43,616 nt of DNA from Candidatus Gastranaerophilales bacterium (lineage in GTDB: Bacteria > Cyanobacteriota > Vampirovibrionia > Gastranaerophilales > Gastranaerophilaceae), in contig CALUTK010000011.1 of the NCBI GenBank assembly GCA_944323675.1, positions 1 to 43,616 on the forward strand. Direction: 5' to 3'. The notes beneath the pieces were generated by a model that was not told the origin of the DNA, searched no databases, and saw nothing but the letters and a program-made list of their open reading frames with translations. A program made the translations under genes and the position numbers. Below, in pieces: positions 17,575 through 40,755 of this stretch (positions are counted from its first letter, which is position 1; every line of letters starts with the position of its first letter).

Positions 17575-17603
17575 AAAGACGGGTTTTTGACCCGTCTTTT
17601 TTT
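17575..17603 (+). terminator. intrinsic terminator
   Basis: Stem AAAGACGGGT (17575-17584), loop TTTTG, ACCCGTCTTT (17590-17599), then further T residues. It ends the 57-residue ORF on the plus strand; on the minus strand it lies directly after the zinc-ribbon/TonB gene but with a poorer T-tract. Confidence 0.85.
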
Positions 17604-18210
17604 ATCTCAATTTTATTTTTATAACCCCGTTTTCTGTAAACACATCAGCAGTGAATTTCACTCCCGCAAAGCCGGTTGGCGGAATATCAACTTTTGCGGT
17701 ATTTTTCATCATTCTGATAACTTCGTTATTGAAAAGCGTTCCGCCTTCTTCTTTTATCAAACGCCGATTTGTAAGTTTTCCGTTTTTATTGACCTTAAAT
17801 TCAATTTTGCAGCGGCCGTTGTCTATTACGTCACGGGTCTCTATGTTTCCGTATAAAGTATTTTGAAGTTTTAATTTATAAACTGACAAAGGATTATCTT
17901 TTGAACCCGCGGTATCCGGCAGTGTATCATCCCATATTTTATCTATGGAAGGAATATTCCTGATTGTTTTTACGTTTTCAGGCTGAGGGGACGGCTGCTG
18001 TACAGATTTCTGCTGCGGGCTAAATCCAAACCATATCCAGCCTGACAAAGCAATACATATCGCAAAAATTCCCCACGACAGCAGCTGCTTAGGCGTAACA
18101 GACACCCCGCATCCCGCCATGGAAGGGGCTTCTGTAAATTCATCGTTTCCGCAGTCACAGTAATCAGGTTTTTCTTTATGTAATTTTTGACAAACAGTAC
18201 ATTTAAACAC
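17602..18210 (-). CDS. zinc-ribbon / single-TM / TonB-C-like fusion protein
   Basis: 202 residues from a GTG at 18210. Residues 1-25 form a four-Cys zinc-ribbon-like knuckle (CTVC...CDCGNDEF). One membrane segment follows at about 45-65 (SWGIFAICIALSGWIWFGF), then a Pro/Gln linker (PQQKSVQQPSPQPE). The C-terminal half (about 110-202) resembles the TonB C-terminal fold (YKLKLQNTLYGNI...CKIEFKVNKNGKL..RRLIKEEG..FNNEVIRMM). Topology would put the ribbon in the cytoplasm and the TonB-like domain in the periplasm. Its own promoter suggests independent or additional expression relative to the upstream vWA/FHA cluster. Partner and energy source unknown. Confidence 0.7.
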   Translation of the reverse strand: MFKCTVCQKLHKEKPDYCDCGNDEFTEAPSMAGCGVSVTPKQLLSWGIFAICIALSGWIWFGFSPQQKSVQQPSPQPENVKTIRNIPSIDKIWDDTLPDTAGSKDNPLSVYKLKLQNTLYGNIETRDVIDNGRCKIEFKVNKNGKLTNRRLIKEEGGTLFNNEVIRMMKNTAKVDIPPTGFAGVKFTADVFTENGVIKIKLR

Positions 18211-18274: not shown

Positions 18275-18412
18275 CTACTGTTTAACGAATTTTTGAATTT
18301 GAAGAACCACTGTTTTATTTATTGACGGTTTTGTAAAACCTGCCGCCGCAGTCACTACAAATAATGCCGCTATTATAAAGCATACATAAATTGTTAAAGA
18401 GTTTCTATTCAT
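18275..18412 (-). CDS. 45-residue single-TM peptide
   Basis: Begins MNRNSLTIYVCFIIAALFVV and ends VLQIQKFVKQ. The first half is one hydrophobic helix, the second half is basic. Its ATG overlaps the stop of the upstream TonB-C-like gene by 8 nt (ATGAATAG), with GAGAGG about 10 nt before, so translational coupling is likely. It resembles small membrane subunits or pseudopilin-like fragments in size only; function unknown. Confidence 0.5.
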   Translation of the reverse strand: MNRNSLTIYVCFIIAALFVVTAAAGFTKPSINKTVVLQIQKFVKQ

Positions 18413-19196
18413 AAATATTTATCCTCTCTAAATCATTATAATCTTCCGGATTTGCAAGATTTGTTTCCAATCCTATTAAAAATAGCCCCCGCATCGTTGT
18501 ACTGTTTCGGACTGAACCCTTCGGAAATGTCAATAACTGAGTTCTCGGAAGCTGCCTGATTGCCGCAACAACCTTTTCCTTTTCTCTGCTGTAACGGGGA
18601 TTTGTGCAAAAAGTCTTAATTCCGGTAATATTTTTATATTTGTCAACTTTAAAAGAAAAATAAAAAGCTGTTCCTACCGGAGCATCAACCCCGGATGTCA
18701 TCATGACTTCATTCATTATATCACTCCGCCACTTATTCCAGGCAATAAGCTCTTCCCGCCTTGTAAGCTTTCTGTCAGAAGTTGTTTCTTCCGTCGATTG
18801 TTCCAGAAACTCTCCCATCTGTGCCTGTATTGCTTTTGGAATTTGCGAAACAATTTCCTCATTTGGATTAGTTTCGCTGACAATCATTTTTTCCTGTGAT
18901 GCAGTGTAGGAGGGCTGAACTATGATTTTTTCTTCTGACGCCGAATTTGAGGGGTTTATAACAGCTTTTTCATCTGTCAAAAATGCAGACGGTTCAATCT
19001 TTACAGGGCGCGGAACCCTTTTCGGCTTTTGTGATAACAATTTTAATTCTTTTTGAGTGAGTTTTTCGCTGTATCTTTCCAGCTTAAAATCAGAACCTTT
19101 TATCACAAAAGTTTTATGCAGTTTCGGAGATGTCAAGCCTGTCACTACTGTCAAAAAAACTATTGAAATTATCAAAAATATTTTTAAAAATTTCAT
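18405..19196 (-). CDS. secreted or anchored protein with TonB-C-like domain
   Basis: 263 residues. A hydrophobic N-terminus (about 2-23) acts as signal or anchor. Residues about 67-112 contain three similar 14-residue segments around AFLTDEKAVINPS, ASEEKIIVQPS and ASQEKMIVSE. The C-terminal domain (about 147-250) begins REELIAWNKWRSDIMNEVM and contains FSFKVDKYKNITGIK, a pattern seen in TolA/TonB C-terminal domains. It lies 2 nt from the FHA-like membrane gene, so the two are co-transcribed. Likely periplasmic adaptor of the cluster, by inference. Confidence 0.65.
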   Translation of the reverse strand: MKFLKIFLIISIVFLTVVTGLTSPKLHKTFVIKGSDFKLERYSEKLTQKELKLLSQKPKRVPRPVKIEPSAFLTDEKAVINPSNSASEEKIIVQPSYTASQEKMIVSETNPNEEIVSQIPKAIQAQMGEFLEQSTEETTSDRKLTRREELIAWNKWRSDIMNEVMMTSGVDAPVGTAFYFSFKVDKYKNITGIKTFCTNPRYSREKEKVVAAIRQLPRTQLLTFPKGSVRNSTTMRGLFLIGLETNLANPEDYNDLERINIYE

Positions 19197-19198
19197 AA

Positions 19199-20800
19199 TT
19201 AATCTTTATCAATTTTAGCAATTAATTCATCGCAAGCGTAAATATCAAAGTTTGTCTGGCTCAACAATACTGTTTCTGCGAGCAGTAATGCAGTCGGAAC
19301 AAGTGCCGCAATGAAACTCAGTGCAAGACCTTTAAAATCTCCGCCGATTTCCGTCATAAAATATGAAACGTTCATTGTGAATTCAATAAAGATTATACAA
19401 AGTGCAATCCACAAATATCTTCTGTTATCCGCTCTGAGTTTTTTAACGCCTTCAAGCCCGAAGATATTTACGCCGTGCTGTCTGTAGTCGCTAAAACCGT
19501 CCTGCTTTATAACTTCAGACCCTTGAATTTTCTTTGAAGCAGTAAACGCAGCAACAAACGAGAAAAATGCAAATATAATTAAAAATGTTGCAAGAACAAG
19601 AAATATCGGGCTGAATCTGAGTCCGGAAATTCTTACCCACCCTGCGGCTTCCGGAAAGCACATCGCAAGAGTATTAGATACACCGTAAGCAAGAAACGGG
19701 GCAGTTAAAATTCCGAGCACAACCTCTCCTATGGATTTTAACTGCAAAGTAAACTGTCTGTCTTTAATGTTACGGATTTTAGTTGAACTTAAACTGTTAA
19801 TGTATCTATCAATCCATACTCTGTATGCTTTTATAACAGCTTCAAAATCTTCTCTGAATTCAAGTTTATTCAAAGCTGCCTGCCACTCTGAACTGTTGCA
19901 GGTAAAATAACCGCAGGCAATTGCAACTGTTGTCATTATTCCGGTAAAGAAAAGAGAGATAAATACTGCAAATGACATAAAGTTATTCACGTTCATAAAA
20001 TAAATCAAATTAACAGTATAAATTCCCAGCAAAAATATTGCGGAAAGCCAGAGCATGAAATTCTGGGCAATCCTTGAAGTTTTAATGCTGTCTTTTACGA
20101 CATTATTCTGCAAAAATAAACATACACCCTGTTTTAACATCAGGCAGATAGCAAAAATTATAAGGGTATAAATTACCCATACCTTGATATTAGTCGGAAG
20201 ATACAGATATTTTTCGGCCTCTTTTACAGTTAACCCCATAAGATAGTTTGACACTGCAAACGCGTTGATTATTGCGCAGCCGAGAAGTGCAATATGCAGA
20301 AATATATTTGTTTTTGTATTAGTTGATAATTTATGACGGAGTTCGTTTATAGAATATGCAACCTGTTTAATAATCGCAACTCGTGCATTTTCAATAGGTT
20401 CGCGCTGTTTTTCAATCTTCACTCTTGTAATAGTTGCAGAATCATTACCGTAAATATGTTTTAAATCGTCCTCGTTTAAATCTTCCCCGCCAATCATTGA
20501 AACGGATTTTGGCTGATGAACAAGTTTTATACCAATGTATTCAGTCGTATCGGCAAAGACAATCTTGCAAACATTTGTAAGTTCAATTTTTTGTAATGGT
20601 TTTCCTTTAAAAAGAATTTTTTCATTACGGAAATTATTTATAATGTAATATTTACCCGTAATTTTATCTGTCTGAACCGTCAAAAGAACATCATAACCTG
20701 TATTAACAACGAAATCACAGTTTTTATCCGAACCTATATTAATAAGGTCTTTATCCTCAAAAGTTTTTTCCTGTGCGGACGATATAATAACAATTGACAT
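19199..20800 (-). CDS. FHA-like domain fused to multi-TM membrane protein
   Basis: 533 residues. Residues 1-95 look like a degenerate forkhead-associated domain (INIGSDKNCDFVV, then alternating strands), but the usual Ser-x-x-His phosphothreonine-binding motif is not visible. A charged linker follows (about 105-160), then about eight hydrophobic helices between 165 and 515. No transporter signature is seen. It sits 12 nt after the vWA gene and 2 nt before the TonB-C-like gene. FHA and vWA domains commonly scaffold complexes, so this may be the membrane core of an envelope assembly. Confidence 0.65.
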   Translation of the reverse strand: MSIVIISSAQEKTFEDKDLINIGSDKNCDFVVNTGYDVLLTVQTDKITGKYYIINNFRNEKILFKGKPLQKIELTNVCKIVFADTTEYIGIKLVHQPKSVSMIGGEDLNEDDLKHIYGNDSATITRVKIEKQREPIENARVAIIKQVAYSINELRHKLSTNTKTNIFLHIALLGCAIINAFAVSNYLMGLTVKEAEKYLYLPTNIKVWVIYTLIIFAICLMLKQGVCLFLQNNVVKDSIKTSRIAQNFMLWLSAIFLLGIYTVNLIYFMNVNNFMSFAVFISLFFTGIMTTVAIACGYFTCNSSEWQAALNKLEFREDFEAVIKAYRVWIDRYINSLSSTKIRNIKDRQFTLQLKSIGEVVLGILTAPFLAYGVSNTLAMCFPEAAGWVRISGLRFSPIFLVLATFLIIFAFFSFVAAFTASKKIQGSEVIKQDGFSDYRQHGVNIFGLEGVKKLRADNRRYLWIALCIIFIEFTMNVSYFMTEIGGDFKGLALSFIAALVPTALLLAETVLLSQTNFDIYACDELIAKIDKD

Positions 20801-20812
20801 AACTTAGCCTTT

Positions 20813-21481
20813 CTATCTGTCGAGTGCATGGACAAAATTTTTAATTGTTTTATCAACATTTTGTTCAGGGGAAATAAGGAGTTTCTTTTCGCCGAGAACA
20901 GGCCCGAGTTTTTCTTTAACCATATCAAGTTTTTCGGGATGAGCATACAAAAACATCATTGCAAGATCAGGCGCATATTTTTGAACATTTTTAACATTAT
21001 CAGGAAGAGTGTCCCAATTTATTTGTTTTTCAACGGCGCCCTCGTTTTCCAGATCTCCAAGAACGACAACTGCAGGGAGATAACCGTTTTTCTTCATAGT
21101 AAGCGCGTGAGAAAAAGCTTTTTTAAGTCCGACCCCGTAAGCAGTTCCGTAATCCGATTCATCATATTTGGTAAAAGCATTCATAGCCTTATCAATACCT
21201 GAACCGTTAAAAGGAGCACCTTCATAAATTAAATAAGCATCTTCAGACACCCTTAAAATCTTTACTGTATCTTCCGGATCCAGAATATTGCAAATCTGAC
21301 GGACAGTTTTCTTTTGAGCGGCAAGTCCCTTCTGGTTTGAAGCCGAGGAATCAACTACAAAAATTACGGCTGCCGGTTTAAAATCATCTACTTTAATATG
21401 TTTGGCTGCACTAAAAATAAGCTTTCCTATAATGGAAATAGCAAGAATAAGCAGTCCTATAATTATCAGTCTTTTATTCAT
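20813..21481 (-). CDS. membrane-anchored von Willebrand factor A protein
   Basis: 222 residues. One N-terminal helix (about 4-24) anchors a vWA domain. The metal-ion-dependent adhesion site looks complete: DSSAS after VIFVV, the Thr in DYGTAYGVGL, and the Asp in VVVLGDLENEG. A functional MIDAS suggests divalent-metal-dependent partner binding, probably in the periplasm. First gene of the cluster running down to 18275. It is short for a Bat-type protein, with no second C-terminal membrane segment. Confidence 0.8.
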   Translation of the reverse strand: MNKRLIIIGLLILAISIIGKLIFSAAKHIKVDDFKPAAVIFVVDSSASNQKGLAAQKKTVRQICNILDPEDTVKILRVSEDAYLIYEGAPFNGSGIDKAMNAFTKYDESDYGTAYGVGLKKAFSHALTMKKNGYLPAVVVLGDLENEGAVEKQINWDTLPDNVKNVQKYAPDLAMMFLYAHPEKLDMVKEKLGPVLGEKKLLISPEQNVDKTIKNFVHALDR

Positions 21482-36977: not shown

Positions 36978-37367
36978 TTAAATTTCACTGACTGAAATAC
37001 TTGTAATACCGGAGTTTCTTGCAGAATCCATAACCCTTACAACAGCACCGTGGGTTGAATTGCCGTCTGTTTGAATCATTAAGCCGTCAGGGAAATCTTT
37101 AGCCTGCGCTTTTAAAGTGTTTTCAAGAGAATCAGCAGGGATTTCTTCCCCGTTGATGTAATATCTGTTATCCGAGGATACGTCCACCGTTAAAATTTTC
37201 GTATCTTTTTGAACCTGTTCTTCCGCAACATTTTCAGGAACAGTTAAATTCAACCCCTGCTGATCAAGAAGCGGCGCAATTACCATCATTATAATCAGAA
37301 GCACAAGAAAAATATCCGTAAGCGGTGTAATGTTTATTTCATTAAAAGTGTTACGTTCGCGACTCAT
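36978..37367 (-). CDS. ExbD/TolR family protein (second copy)
   Basis: 129 residues. A short cytoplasmic start (MSRERNTFNEI) is followed by one membrane helix with the conserved proton-path Asp (NITPLTDIFLVLLIIMMV) and a periplasmic domain (about 50-129). With TolQ/ExbB it forms the proton-driven motor that energises TonB or TolA. It follows the first TolR by 2 nt. It differs strongly from it in the periplasmic domain while the membrane helix is nearly identical. Confidence 0.92.
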   Translation of the reverse strand: MSRERNTFNEINITPLTDIFLVLLIIMMVIAPLLDQQGLNLTVPENVAEEQVQKDTKILTVDVSSDNRYYINGEEIPADSLENTLKAQAKDFPDGLMIQTDGNSTHGAVVRVMDSARNSGITSISVSEI

Positions 37368-37369
37368 AT

Positions 37370-37822
37370 TTATGCTCCCTGATTTTCATTCTGCTTTTGT
37401 AAATCTTTTTGTTCTTTTTTAGTAAGCGGCTCGCCTGCTACGATAAGCTTTTTATACTCAGCATCCTGAGCCGCATTCATTACTTTCATAATTTCGGAAC
37501 TTTTTACCTGCTCATCAGCCTTTACTACAACTTCAGGCTTTTCGATTGAGGATTTCAGCGCAATAAGTTCATCCGTCAATGTATCAGGGTTTATCTCACG
37601 CCCGTTTACGTACATCAAACCGGCCTTTGTAATTGATACTGTTGCATTTTTCTGTTCAATAGCAATCCCGCTGTTGATTTCCGGAACCGATATCGCATTA
37701 TCCATTGACTGAAACGTCGGTGCCACAACCATCATGATAATTAACAGTACCAGAAAGATATCCGTTAACGGTGTGATATTTATTTCGGTAAACATTTTAC
37801 CTTTTTTTGAACTCATTGCCAT
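37370..37822 (-). CDS. ExbD/TolR family protein (first copy)
   Basis: 150 residues. The membrane helix INITPLTDIFLVLLIIMMVV carries the conserved Asp. The periplasmic domain (about 45-130) is followed by a Lys/Gln-rich tail (KKEQKDLQKQNENQ). AAGGAA lies 8 nt before the ATG. It sits between TolQ and the second TolR. Two tandem copies suggest a heteromeric motor or two partners sharing one TolQ. Confidence 0.92.
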   Translation of the reverse strand: MAMSSKKGKMFTEINITPLTDIFLVLLIIMMVVAPTFQSMDNAISVPEINSGIAIEQKNATVSITKAGLMYVNGREINPDTLTDELIALKSSIEKPEVVVKADEQVKSSEIMKVMNAAQDAEYKKLIVAGEPLTKKEQKDLQKQNENQGA

Positions 37823-37857
37823 TTTAATTTTCCTTCAAATTTTCCGTTATTGGCTGA

Positions 37858-38505
37858 CTACATTGAAATATTTGTCGAAATTTTTGTTGATTTGTCGTTT
37901 TCAGAATCAACAAAGCTTAAGAATAACAGCTTAATCAACTGAAAATCGTCCTCATAGCGTTTAACAATAGATTGGAAAGAGTTGTAGAAAACAACCGCAA
38001 CAATCGCAACACCAAGACCGAAAGCAGTTGCAATCAAGGCAGATCCGATACCCATTGCAACAGCTGCAGATTGGTTACCCTGAGTTGCAAGATCCTGGAA
38101 TGTATAAAGAATACGAACAACAGTACCGAACAACCCTAAAAATGGTGCTACACCACCGATTGTACCTAAGATTGTTAAGTGGCTTTCGAGTTTTCTTGTA
38201 GCGAGCGCTGCTGCAATATCAAAAGAACGTGAAAACCCGTTTCTCTGTTCCGAGAAAATTCTGACGGCTTCTTCCGTCACTTCACCTATCACACCGCCGC
38301 ATTGAACCGCTAAATTCTGTGCGCCCTGAAGGTTGTTTTTTGCAAGTTCTTTTTGAAGTTTCGGGATAAAAAGAACAACATCTCTTTTGTTTCTTTTGTA
38401 AACTGAAACTCTGTTCAATACAACCATTACAACAAGGATGGAACAAACCAGAATAGGCAATAATACCGGCCAGTCCAATTTAATTGAGTTAAGTAAAAGT
38501 TCCAT
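37858..38505 (-). CDS. MotA/TolQ/ExbB proton-channel protein
   Basis: 215 residues with three membrane helices (about 14-32, 113-133, 150-172). Family core: LTILGTIGGVAPFLGLFGTVVRI and SALIATAFGLGVAIVAVVFYN. It forms the pentameric channel around the TolR/ExbD helices and converts proton flow into movement of the TonB-like protein. It is 98 nt downstream of the TonB-like gene, with two hairpins in the gap, and 35 nt upstream of the first TolR. Confidence 0.93.
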   Translation of the reverse strand: MELLLNSIKLDWPVLLPILVCSILVVMVVLNRVSVYKRNKRDVVLFIPKLQKELAKNNLQGAQNLAVQCGGVIGEVTEEAVRIFSEQRNGFSRSFDIAAALATRKLESHLTILGTIGGVAPFLGLFGTVVRILYTFQDLATQGNQSAAVAMGIGSALIATAFGLGVAIVAVVFYNSFQSIVKRYEDDFQLIKLLFLSFVDSENDKSTKISTNISM

Positions 38506-38550
38506 AGTTTTTAATCCTCTTTATTAAGTAATTACATTGTTTTTTATTTT

Positions 38551-38596
38551 GCCGCGGCCTGTATAATTCCGGCCGGCGGATTGACCGCTTACGCGG
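38551..38596 (-). other. two hairpins between tonB-like and tolQ genes
   Basis: CCGC-TTAC-GCGG (38585-38596), then a GC-rich stem of GGCCGGC with GCCGCGGCC (38551-38577) with a small bulge. Neither is followed by a T-tract on the minus strand. They may stabilise or attenuate the transcript between the two genes, allowing different protein ratios. Confidence 0.4.
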
Positions 38597-38603
38597 GAGA
38601 TTT

Positions 38604-39857
38604 TTAATATCCGGACGCTCCGAATACGTTGTAGTCAAAAGTAAATTGAATATCAATACTTTGACCTTTAAATTCTGCCGGAAGCGGTTTAAATGGCGCT
38701 GTGAGTTTAACCGCATTTAAAGCTGCGTTATCGGCACTCGGAAGTCCTGATGATTTAAATACGCTGCAGGAAAGAAGTCTGCCGTCTTTAGCTATTTTGA
38801 ATAACAGAACAACGCGCTTGCTTTCGTTTCCTTTCGGCGGATTCCAATTCATCTTGATACGACGTTGGAGTTCTCTCATATAAGGCCCGAAATCAGGTTC
38901 TCTGATTGCATCAATTCCAGGTCTGCCGTTAGGATTTCCAGGTCCGGGATTTCCTAATGAGCCTGAACCGCCTCCGCTTTTAGCGAGTTTAGAGCCTGAG
39001 GATGAACCTCCGGTCGGCGCAAGTACAGGCGCAGGTGTATATTTTCTTGCGGAAGAAGAACCGCCTGCGCTACCCATAGCAGGAGAAGCGCCGCCTTTTG
39101 CAAGTTTCCCTGAACCGCTTATAGGACCTGTAGCATAATGACCGCCGGTTGTACCGCCCTTAGGTACAGGAACCTGAAATGCCGATGACGGCTTTGCAAC
39201 CGGTTTTGGCGTATTCGGCGGCTTTATAGAAGGTTTTGCTGTCGGCGGATTAGGTTTTGCAGGTGCCACAGCCTTTGGAGCCGGCGGAGCCGGCGTCGGC
39301 TTAGGCGCAGGTTTTTCAACAGGTTTCTGAATCAAATTCTGCAAAGGATTCTTTGCCGGAGCCGGCTTTTGAGCCTGTTTTTGTACAGGTTTTTGTACAG
39401 GTTTCGGAGTTTGTTTCGGTGCAGGCGCAGGTTTTGCCTGAGCAACCGGAGCCGGAGTGCTTGCCTTTGCAGCAGGCGCCGACGGCGTTGACGGCATTGA
39501 AACTTTCCTTGTCGGGTCATGATGCCCGCCTGCTCGTGAATTCCTATCCGCACGGTAAGGAGTATTCTTATTAATAGGAGTGTCCTCCTTATCCACAAGA
39601 ACAAACTCTATATCGTTCATTTTAGGTTTCGGTTTTTCAAACAGATGCAAATTAAAGCCGAGAAGCATTAAAATTAGAGTTATCAGCCAAACCGCCCCAA
39701 CTGCCGACGGGTGAAGCAGAACTGAAATCCAGAAAGATTTTTTCAGTGTCAGTCCTTCTTTATCCTCACGCAGAACCGCAGGGGTAGTGTATCCTGAATT
39801 CTTTTCAGACTCCTCTTCTTCTAATAAATTATTGTTGTATTTGTTTACGATTGACAT
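38604..39857 (-). CDS. TonB/TolA-like energy-transducing protein
   Basis: 417 residues. A cytoplasmic N-terminus (about 1-42), one membrane helix (about 43-66), a Pro/Lys/Gln/Ala-rich periplasm-spanning linker with KPVQKPVQKQAQKPAP repeats (about 110-240), a Gly/Ser-rich stretch (about 240-315) and a C-terminal TonB domain (about 325-417, YMRELQRRIKMNWNPP...LLFKIAKDGRL). It connects the TolQ/TolR motor to an outer-membrane partner. No tolB, pal or TonB-dependent receptor is in the window, so Ton and Tol roles cannot be separated. The gene heads the cluster 39857-36978. Confidence 0.9.
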   Translation of the reverse strand: MSIVNKYNNNLLEEEESEKNSGYTTPAVLREDKEGLTLKKSFWISVLLHPSAVGAVWLITLILMLLGFNLHLFEKPKPKMNDIEFVLVDKEDTPINKNTPYRADRNSRAGGHHDPTRKVSMPSTPSAPAAKASTPAPVAQAKPAPAPKQTPKPVQKPVQKQAQKPAPAKNPLQNLIQKPVEKPAPKPTPAPPAPKAVAPAKPNPPTAKPSIKPPNTPKPVAKPSSAFQVPVPKGGTTGGHYATGPISGSGKLAKGGASPAMGSAGGSSSARKYTPAPVLAPTGGSSSGSKLAKSGGGSGSLGNPGPGNPNGRPGIDAIREPDFGPYMRELQRRIKMNWNPPKGNESKRVVLLFKIAKDGRLLSCSVFKSSGLPSADNAALNAVKLTAPFKPLPAEFKGQSIDIQFTFDYNVFGASGY

Positions 39858-39938
39858 TGTATTTACCTATCTGCAACCCTTTTGCTAATCTTTTATAATA
39901 TTATTCTTAAATTAAAAATAATATTATCGGCTGACCGG

Positions 39939-40685
39939 CTAGTAATTTGAATTATATATTGCCGGGTTAACAGTAATTGGCTGGGTAAGCACCAATTCTA
40001 TATTTGAATTAGCAGGGATAACGACATCGTCTCCTTTATCCCAAACTGATTTGATAAGCCCTCCGCCTGCGCCGACAGCAGTCCCGAGCGCTGCGCCTTT
40101 ACCTATATCACCGCCAGCAAGAGCGCCAAAAACAACACCTGATACAGCACCTGCACCAGCGCCGACCGTCAGATCTTTCGCGTAATCTTTCGCTACATCA
40201 GCCTTTGTTCCGCCGACAAGCATTCCGCTGTTGTCGCTTGTTTTCACAATTGCGGAAATCGGAATCTGTATTCCATACGGAGTTATTATCTGGGTAAATC
40301 TTAGCATTAATTTACCGTTTATGCTTCCGCGCTTTGCTTTGGAAACTTCCAATACAGTACCGGTCACAGAACTTCCTGCAGGAGCTATAAGGTTATTGTT
40401 GTAATAAAAATCAGACCCCAACGCAACAGTGACAGTCTGCCCGAGAGTTAAGTTCGCCGAATTTAACGGCATTGTTACAAGCGCCGGCATAGATTGTCCT
40501 GCCGGAACCGTTACAACGCTTCCGCGCAGAGTTCCGTTGCCTGTCATTTGAGGTTGTGTGTAATATGCAGGTTGTTTTTGATATTGAGGTGCCGGAGTAT
40601 TCTGGGTATATGAATAGTTCCCCGCTGCGAAAGCAGCGCTGCCGGCCGCAATTAGTGCCGCTATCAATATATTTCTTTTAAACAT
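39939..40685 (-). CDS. secreted protein with barrel-like and glycine-zipper regions
   Basis: 248 residues from the ATG at 40685, chosen for its GGAAGGG site; the frame opens 8 codons earlier at a TTG. Signal peptide MFKRNILIAALIAAGSAAFA. Residues about 55-165 have the spacing of a VirB10/TrbI-like barrel (VPAGQSMPALVTMPLNSA...APAGSSVTGTVLEV...GIQIPISAIV). Residues about 185-220 are a glycine zipper (GAGAGAVSGVVFGALAGG), likely membrane-inserting. It ends with another PANSNIEL strand. Probably envelope-associated; partner unknown. Confidence 0.75.
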   Translation of the reverse strand: MFKRNILIAALIAAGSAAFAAGNYSYTQNTPAPQYQKQPAYYTQPQMTGNGTLRGSVVTVPAGQSMPALVTMPLNSANLTLGQTVTVALGSDFYYNNNLIAPAGSSVTGTVLEVSKAKRGSINGKLMLRFTQIITPYGIQIPISAIVKTSDNSGMLVGGTKADVAKDYAKDLTVGAGAGAVSGVVFGALAGGDIGKGAALGTAVGAGGGLIKSVWDKGDDVVIPANSNIELVLTQPITVNPAIYNSNY

Positions 40686-40755
40686 AAGCAAGTTCCCTTC
40701 CTTAAACAATCACATATCACTCAATAATAACATTGTATTTCGGATTTTACATTTG

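Follow-up and report, generated by a model that had tools for sequence, protein, structure and literature searches.

A conserved five-gene operon of gut Gastranaerophilaceae that may encode an undescribed trans-envelope tether or transducer

Which envelope device might be encoded by a tightly packed run of genes that joins a vWA protein, an FHA-like domain on a membrane protein and TonB/TolA-like arms? The question is raised by a 43,616-nt stretch of DNA (the window), contig C11 of a 1.81 Mb genome that is 95.5% complete and whose close relatives carry the label Candidatus Gastranaerophilales, with one from the same genus being a Candidatus Scatousia. A first-pass annotation made from the letters of the window had described four genes here, and all four ORFs are present on the minus strand where it placed them: the vWA gene (20813..21481; 222 aa), the FHA/8-TM gene (19199..20800; 533 aa), the TC gene (18405..19196; 263 aa) and an ORF for a 45-aa membrane peptide (18275..18412). 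The last of these is preceded by a GAGAGG ribosome-binding-like motif and overlaps the TC gene by exactly the 8 nt that had been claimed (18405-18412). The description of these four genes holds, but a fifth belongs to the unit and had been omitted: a zinc-ribbon gene on the same strand (17602..18210; 202 aa) at a spacing of 64 nt from the 45-aa ORF. A bidirectional terminator-like hairpin (17575..17599, minus strand; AAAGACGGGTTTTTGACCCGTCTTT on the plus strand) lies 2 nt past its end. Consistent with the earlier statement that no named system has this composition, we found none in Pfam, NCBIfam, PADLOC, PDB profiles, Foldseek or the open-access literature, and the open-access PMC articles searched contain no description of an operon of this kind. 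The architecture of the unit is well supported; for its function, the reading that we infer to fit best is a tether or transducer across the envelope, of a kind not described before and resting on a new membrane platform.

A collection of 84,980 species genomes yielded 80 loci. The vWA gene stands immediately upstream of the FHA/8-TM gene in all 78 of them that are readable on their contig, and the TC gene follows immediately downstream in 78 of 79, with a median gap of 2 nt. The zinc-ribbon gene was called in 64/80 loci (the other 16 include contigs ending early), plsY lies upstream in 59/80, and the 45-aa peptide, which is missing in several genera, was called in 50 and recognised by motif in 11 more of the ~75 loci with room for it. 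The first-pass annotation had stated that its proposal would fall if the gene order were confined to the source strain; the order is instead kept family-wide over the 80 loci, and the conservation of order, spacing and protein sequence is far beyond chance. Of 59 related genomes, 30 have the FHA/8-TM gene; these 30 and no others have the vWA gene, and 29 of them have the TC gene. Weak matches to the TC C-terminus also occur in one class-level outgroup (G058) that lacks the other operon genes. The genomes counted are not independent of one another, as 13 of the 59 belong to one genus; by genus, the FHA/8-TM gene is present in 18/40. All but one of the 30 operon-bearing genomes come from a single family, and the exception (G051), 66% complete, may be a mis-binned genome. 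In the class-wide (138/289) and phylum-wide (62/146) samples, every genome with a match, among the matches listed, again belonged to this family. The operon is nearly confined to a single family of cyanobacteria-related gut bacteria, the Gastranaerophilaceae. Composition, order, conservation and co-occurrence are direct observations, and composition, order and co-occurrence together indicate a functional unit. Two divergent genera (L157 and L159) have a reduced unit of vWA, FHA/8-TM and zinc-ribbon proteins from which TC is absent, so that, where loci were read closely, the vWA and FHA/8-TM pair is always left with one or more arms of the TonB/TolA type. A second cluster in the source genome, on contig C13 (L004:5964-12271), encodes an FHA/8-TM protein 52% identical to that of the window, TC-like and zinc-ribbon proteins, and two other, divergent vWA proteins; it has a TrbI/VirB10-like gene directly upstream and an MlaD-like gene downstream.

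The FHA/8-TM protein would be the platform of the predicted complex. In its AF2 model (51 homologues; mean pLDDT 78.9, pTM only 0.54), residues 1-95 form an FHA beta-sandwich with the FHA-1 domain of Rv1747 as best Foldseek match (6ccd; probability 1.00, TMt 0.77), and the eight TM helices that follow agree with both the model and the positive-inside pattern. By their K+R counts, loops 4 and 6 are cytoplasmic, indicative of an N-in/C-in topology with a cytoplasmic FHA-like domain. The pThr-binding residues (GR, SxxH, N) are absent: the Arg position after the conserved Gly is Thr, Ser or Asn in 51/51 homologues, and no SxxH occurs in the equivalent stretch of the 51 aligned sequences, equivalence having been set by sequence inspection rather than by superposition. 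The protein had been annotated as a degenerate FHA domain on an eight-helix membrane protein, which agrees with these results. For its two membrane halves, hhalign gives a collinear alignment (E=0.0036; for example AFGVSNYLMG with AYGVSNTLAM) that scores 26.3, whereas none of 60 column shuffles scored above 20.4. This suggests a 4+4 TM duplication, and such an internal repeat is likely, although the signal is modest. Conservation is highest in the second membrane half (0.85, versus 0.63 for the FHA domain), which carries the invariant membrane-embedded residues E473 and E509, to which K223 in TM2 and invariant Asn/Thr residues can be added. Nothing significant was returned for the protein by Pfam, NCBIfam, PADLOC or PDB-chain profile searches, and the membrane part had no credible Foldseek match to solved structures, viral models being likewise unconvincing; a structural match to an already named system, the other outcome that was to count against the annotation, was therefore not encountered for this protein. 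Standalone FHA-like proteins (~100 aa; 99 aa in L142 and L143) that lack the membrane domain are encoded in several genomes of one genus. The FHA fold on a membrane protein is shared with Rv1747 and FhaA of M. tuberculosis, but the 8-TM protein has no ABC ATPase, lacks the pThr residues and has a membrane domain that is unrelated by sequence searches.

The vWA protein has an N-in membrane anchor with a conserved Lys20 and no Asp, then a short stretch, and then a vWA domain that the positive-inside pattern places in the periplasm. It matches Pfam VWA_2 above the cut-off (E=4.3e-8; VWA, 5.8e-5), and the five MIDAS-type positions checked (D44, S46, S48, T113 and D143; DxSxS + Thr + Asp) are invariant in 30 homologues, in line with the MIDAS-containing anchor of the first-pass annotation. 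A contact between the vWA and FHA-like domains had also been proposed; we reject it because the topology separates the two, the former being periplasmic and the latter cytoplasmic by the positive-inside pattern.

Two of the remaining products are candidate arms. The TC protein combines a membrane anchor and a long variable linker with a C-terminal domain that AF2 models mostly at pLDDT >90 as alpha-beta-beta-alpha-beta and for which the best PDB matches in Foldseek are TonB/TolA C-terminal domains (top match 6sly, probability 0.99). The TonB-C-like fold that had been suggested for this 263-aa protein is thereby supported despite the absence of any convincing or recurring Pfam match among 35 homologues, of significant NCBIfam, PADLOC or PDB-chain matches, and of a sequence-profile match to the window's own TonB. 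The sequence-level TonB_C match in the operon is to the zinc-ribbon protein instead (PF03544 E=1.4e-5 and TIGR01352 3e-6, both above cut-off), which hhalign also matches to the window's TonB (probability 96.6); its TonB_C domain follows an N-terminal CxxC..CxC zinc ribbon and one TM helix. In L049, L050, L054 and L064 the zinc-ribbon gene appears as two adjacent ORFs (ribbon and TM, then TonB_C), which could be either a real split or a frameshift. The TC anchor is characterised by a T..P-x-[MLI]-H motif (conserved T16, P24 and H27, the His following the helix), and the SHLS TM-helix motif of TonB and TolA is absent from it in the homologue alignment; the zinc-ribbon anchor was checked for SHLS by eye only. 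The TC protein had been called secreted. It looks membrane-anchored instead: read by eye, its anchor does not conserve the small residues that signal peptidase would need, and the 45-aa peptide, which consists of an anchor and nothing more, is homologous to it. The homology is evident when 51 peptides are compared with 79 TC N-termini by hhalign (probability 97.1, E=6e-11), and it takes in the TM helix and a stretch reading P-x-[MLI]-[HN]. The short internal repeats reported for TC (SASEEKIIV/TASQEKMIV) are present, but they are part of the variable linker, and relatives such as L035 do not have them. A protein with a TC-type C-terminal domain is also encoded in a class-level outgroup (L154:2736-7747) after two predicted lipoproteins, whose repeat-like N-termini may be beta-propellers.

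The predicted folds and topology thus describe an inner-membrane platform, a periplasmic vWA domain and TonB/TolA-like arms. The step from there to a trans-envelope tether or transducer is taken by analogy with the well-established Tol-Pal and TonB systems and with the membrane-tethered vWA transducers proposed in PMC12204202. We infer that the five products form an inner-membrane-based, periplasm-spanning complex acting, like Tol-Pal, as a tether or transducer between the inner and outer membranes, a proposal that we hold tentatively and to which we would give a little less than an even chance. The 8-TM protein with its two 4-TM repeats would serve as the platform, and its FHA-like domain, devoid of pThr-binding residues, would probably make a fixed protein-protein contact in the cytoplasm. 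The vWA protein would be anchored beside the platform with its metal-site-type adhesion domain facing the periplasm, and through their linkers and C-terminal domains the two arms, TC and zinc-ribbon, could extend to partners in the outer membrane or bound to peptidoglycan. The 45-aa peptide may be a spare anchor, probably docking on the platform at a site of the same kind, and the complex would most likely tether the membranes or pass force or conformational change between them. The absence from the operon of any outer-membrane gene and of any energising gene speaks against this proposal, as do the 16 loci in which the zinc-ribbon gene was not found, the genera that lack the peptide, the TC C-terminal relatives that G058 has apart from such an operon, and the low pTM of the platform model. 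A sensor, or a module that recruits an enzyme, would be an equally good reading of the vWA domain. If the vWA domain and the arms were to sense the periplasm or outer membrane and the 8-TM protein to relay this to an FHA-like domain recruiting a cytoplasmic partner, the operon would be a signalling unit, as might be expected from a membrane unit with an FHA-like domain on its cytoplasmic face and a vWA domain on its periplasmic face, from the zinc ribbon at the cytoplasmic end of the fifth protein, and from the persistence of standalone FHA-like proteins in one genus. We consider such a role unlikely, as the pThr-binding Arg, Ser and His positions are missing throughout the homologues, conservation peaks in the membrane half and not in the FHA domain, and among the genes recognised beside the operon no kinase, phosphatase or regulator recurs consistently. 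A defence function was dropped because there was no PADLOC match and synteny is stable family-wide, often with plsY.

The tether or transducer that we favour shares with Tol-Pal (TolQRA-TolB-Pal) and TonB-ExbB-ExbD the inner-membrane-anchored arms, disordered linkers and TonB/TolA-type C-terminal domains, and the operon may work like a Tol or Ton system. It should not be classed as one, however, because it encodes neither TolQ/ExbB nor TolR/ExbD and the TC anchor lacks SHLS; in their place are the new 8-TM protein and the vWA protein. A search of the genome (95.5% complete) for the Plug domain of TonB-dependent receptors found none, which disfavours TonB-dependent uptake and makes a Tol-like role the better fit. 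The genome encodes two OmpA-family proteins. Its only ExbB gene (37858-38505) is in the same window, 17 kb away and outside the operon, raising the possibility that the arms are driven by the single ExbB-ExbD set (36978-38505) with the 8-TM protein as an adaptor only. ExbB is indeed present in 59/59 relatives, including 30/30 with the operon, but this co-occurrence is uninformative because the 29 operon-less genomes have it equally; with an ExbB gene outside the operon's transcription unit and a TC anchor lacking SHLS, we regard this arrangement as rather improbable.

Of the options offered by the first-pass annotation (an envelope motor, secretion or surface-assembly device), an envelope device remains the best reading, whereas motor, secretion and assembly are unproven and the operon has no TolQ/ExbB gene. 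A new type of motor is conceivable in which the 8-TM protein replaces TolQ/ExbB and uses the proton-motive force to drive the TC and zinc-ribbon arms. It would then be the first member of a new kind of inner-membrane motor, powered by ion-motive force and unrelated in sequence to MotA/TolQ/ExbB, its membrane-embedded glutamates driving the arms and the periplasmic vWA adhesion domain, with the peptide held in one of two pseudo-symmetric docking sites. The invariant E473, E509 and K223 with their accompanying Asn/Thr residues are what such a motor might need, its pairing with TonB/TolA-type arms in an operon free of TolQ/ExbB is near-obligate, and motor-coupled vWA proteins have already been proposed (PMC12204202). 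We nevertheless judge it improbable: the 8-TM family has no match to PF01618 (MotA/TolQ/ExbB) and no such fold appears in its Foldseek list, the invariant charges could have a structural role, and the SHLS helix motif is missing from the TC arm. The membrane-tethered, motor-coupled vWA force transducers proposed in that work (Mol Biol Evol 2025) resemble the present vWA protein in having an N-terminal TM helix, a periplasmic vWA domain and an adjoining gene for a multi-TM protein. They differ in that the membrane neighbour here is not TolQ-like and stands alongside TonB/TolA-like arms, and in that the operon's vWA protein has neither a proline-rich linker before the domain nor a helix Asp. Two traits that would mark such a transducer, TolQ-like motor synteny and SHLS or a trans-pore-helix Asp, were not found here, no TolQ neighbour being recognised.

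The ExbD-ExbD-ExbB-TonB run of the window is accompanied by a TrbI/VirB10-like gene (39939-40709) situated 81 nt from the TonB gene, the whole spanning 36978-40709. Genes of the same TrbI/VirB10-like family are found upstream of the vWA gene in 41/80 loci and directly upstream of the C13 cluster, though not beside the window's own cluster, and could point to a secretion or surface-assembly machine formed together with the operon's products. This has a slim chance of being correct, considering that the TrbI match is under the curated cut-off (E=0.0082; ComB10, 0.0097) and that the surroundings show no recognisably conserved gene for an ATPase, pilin, secretin or cargo. Apart from these weakly matched neighbours in relatives, none of our results suggests secretion.

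If the operon does encode a trans-envelope tether or transducer, uncultured gut Gastranaerophilaceae would link their inner and outer membranes in an undescribed way, with a TonB/TolA-type arm retained and a new family of membrane proteins in place of, or in addition to, the usual motor. This would bear on how TonB/TolA-like arms were recruited by different inner-membrane partners and would provide a testable way into the envelope biology of a lineage in which these genes have no known phenotype. The operon also occurs in records titled Fusobacterium sp. CAG:439 (L049) and uncultured Brachyspira (L042), which, judged by their operon content, look like Gastranaerophilales under other names.
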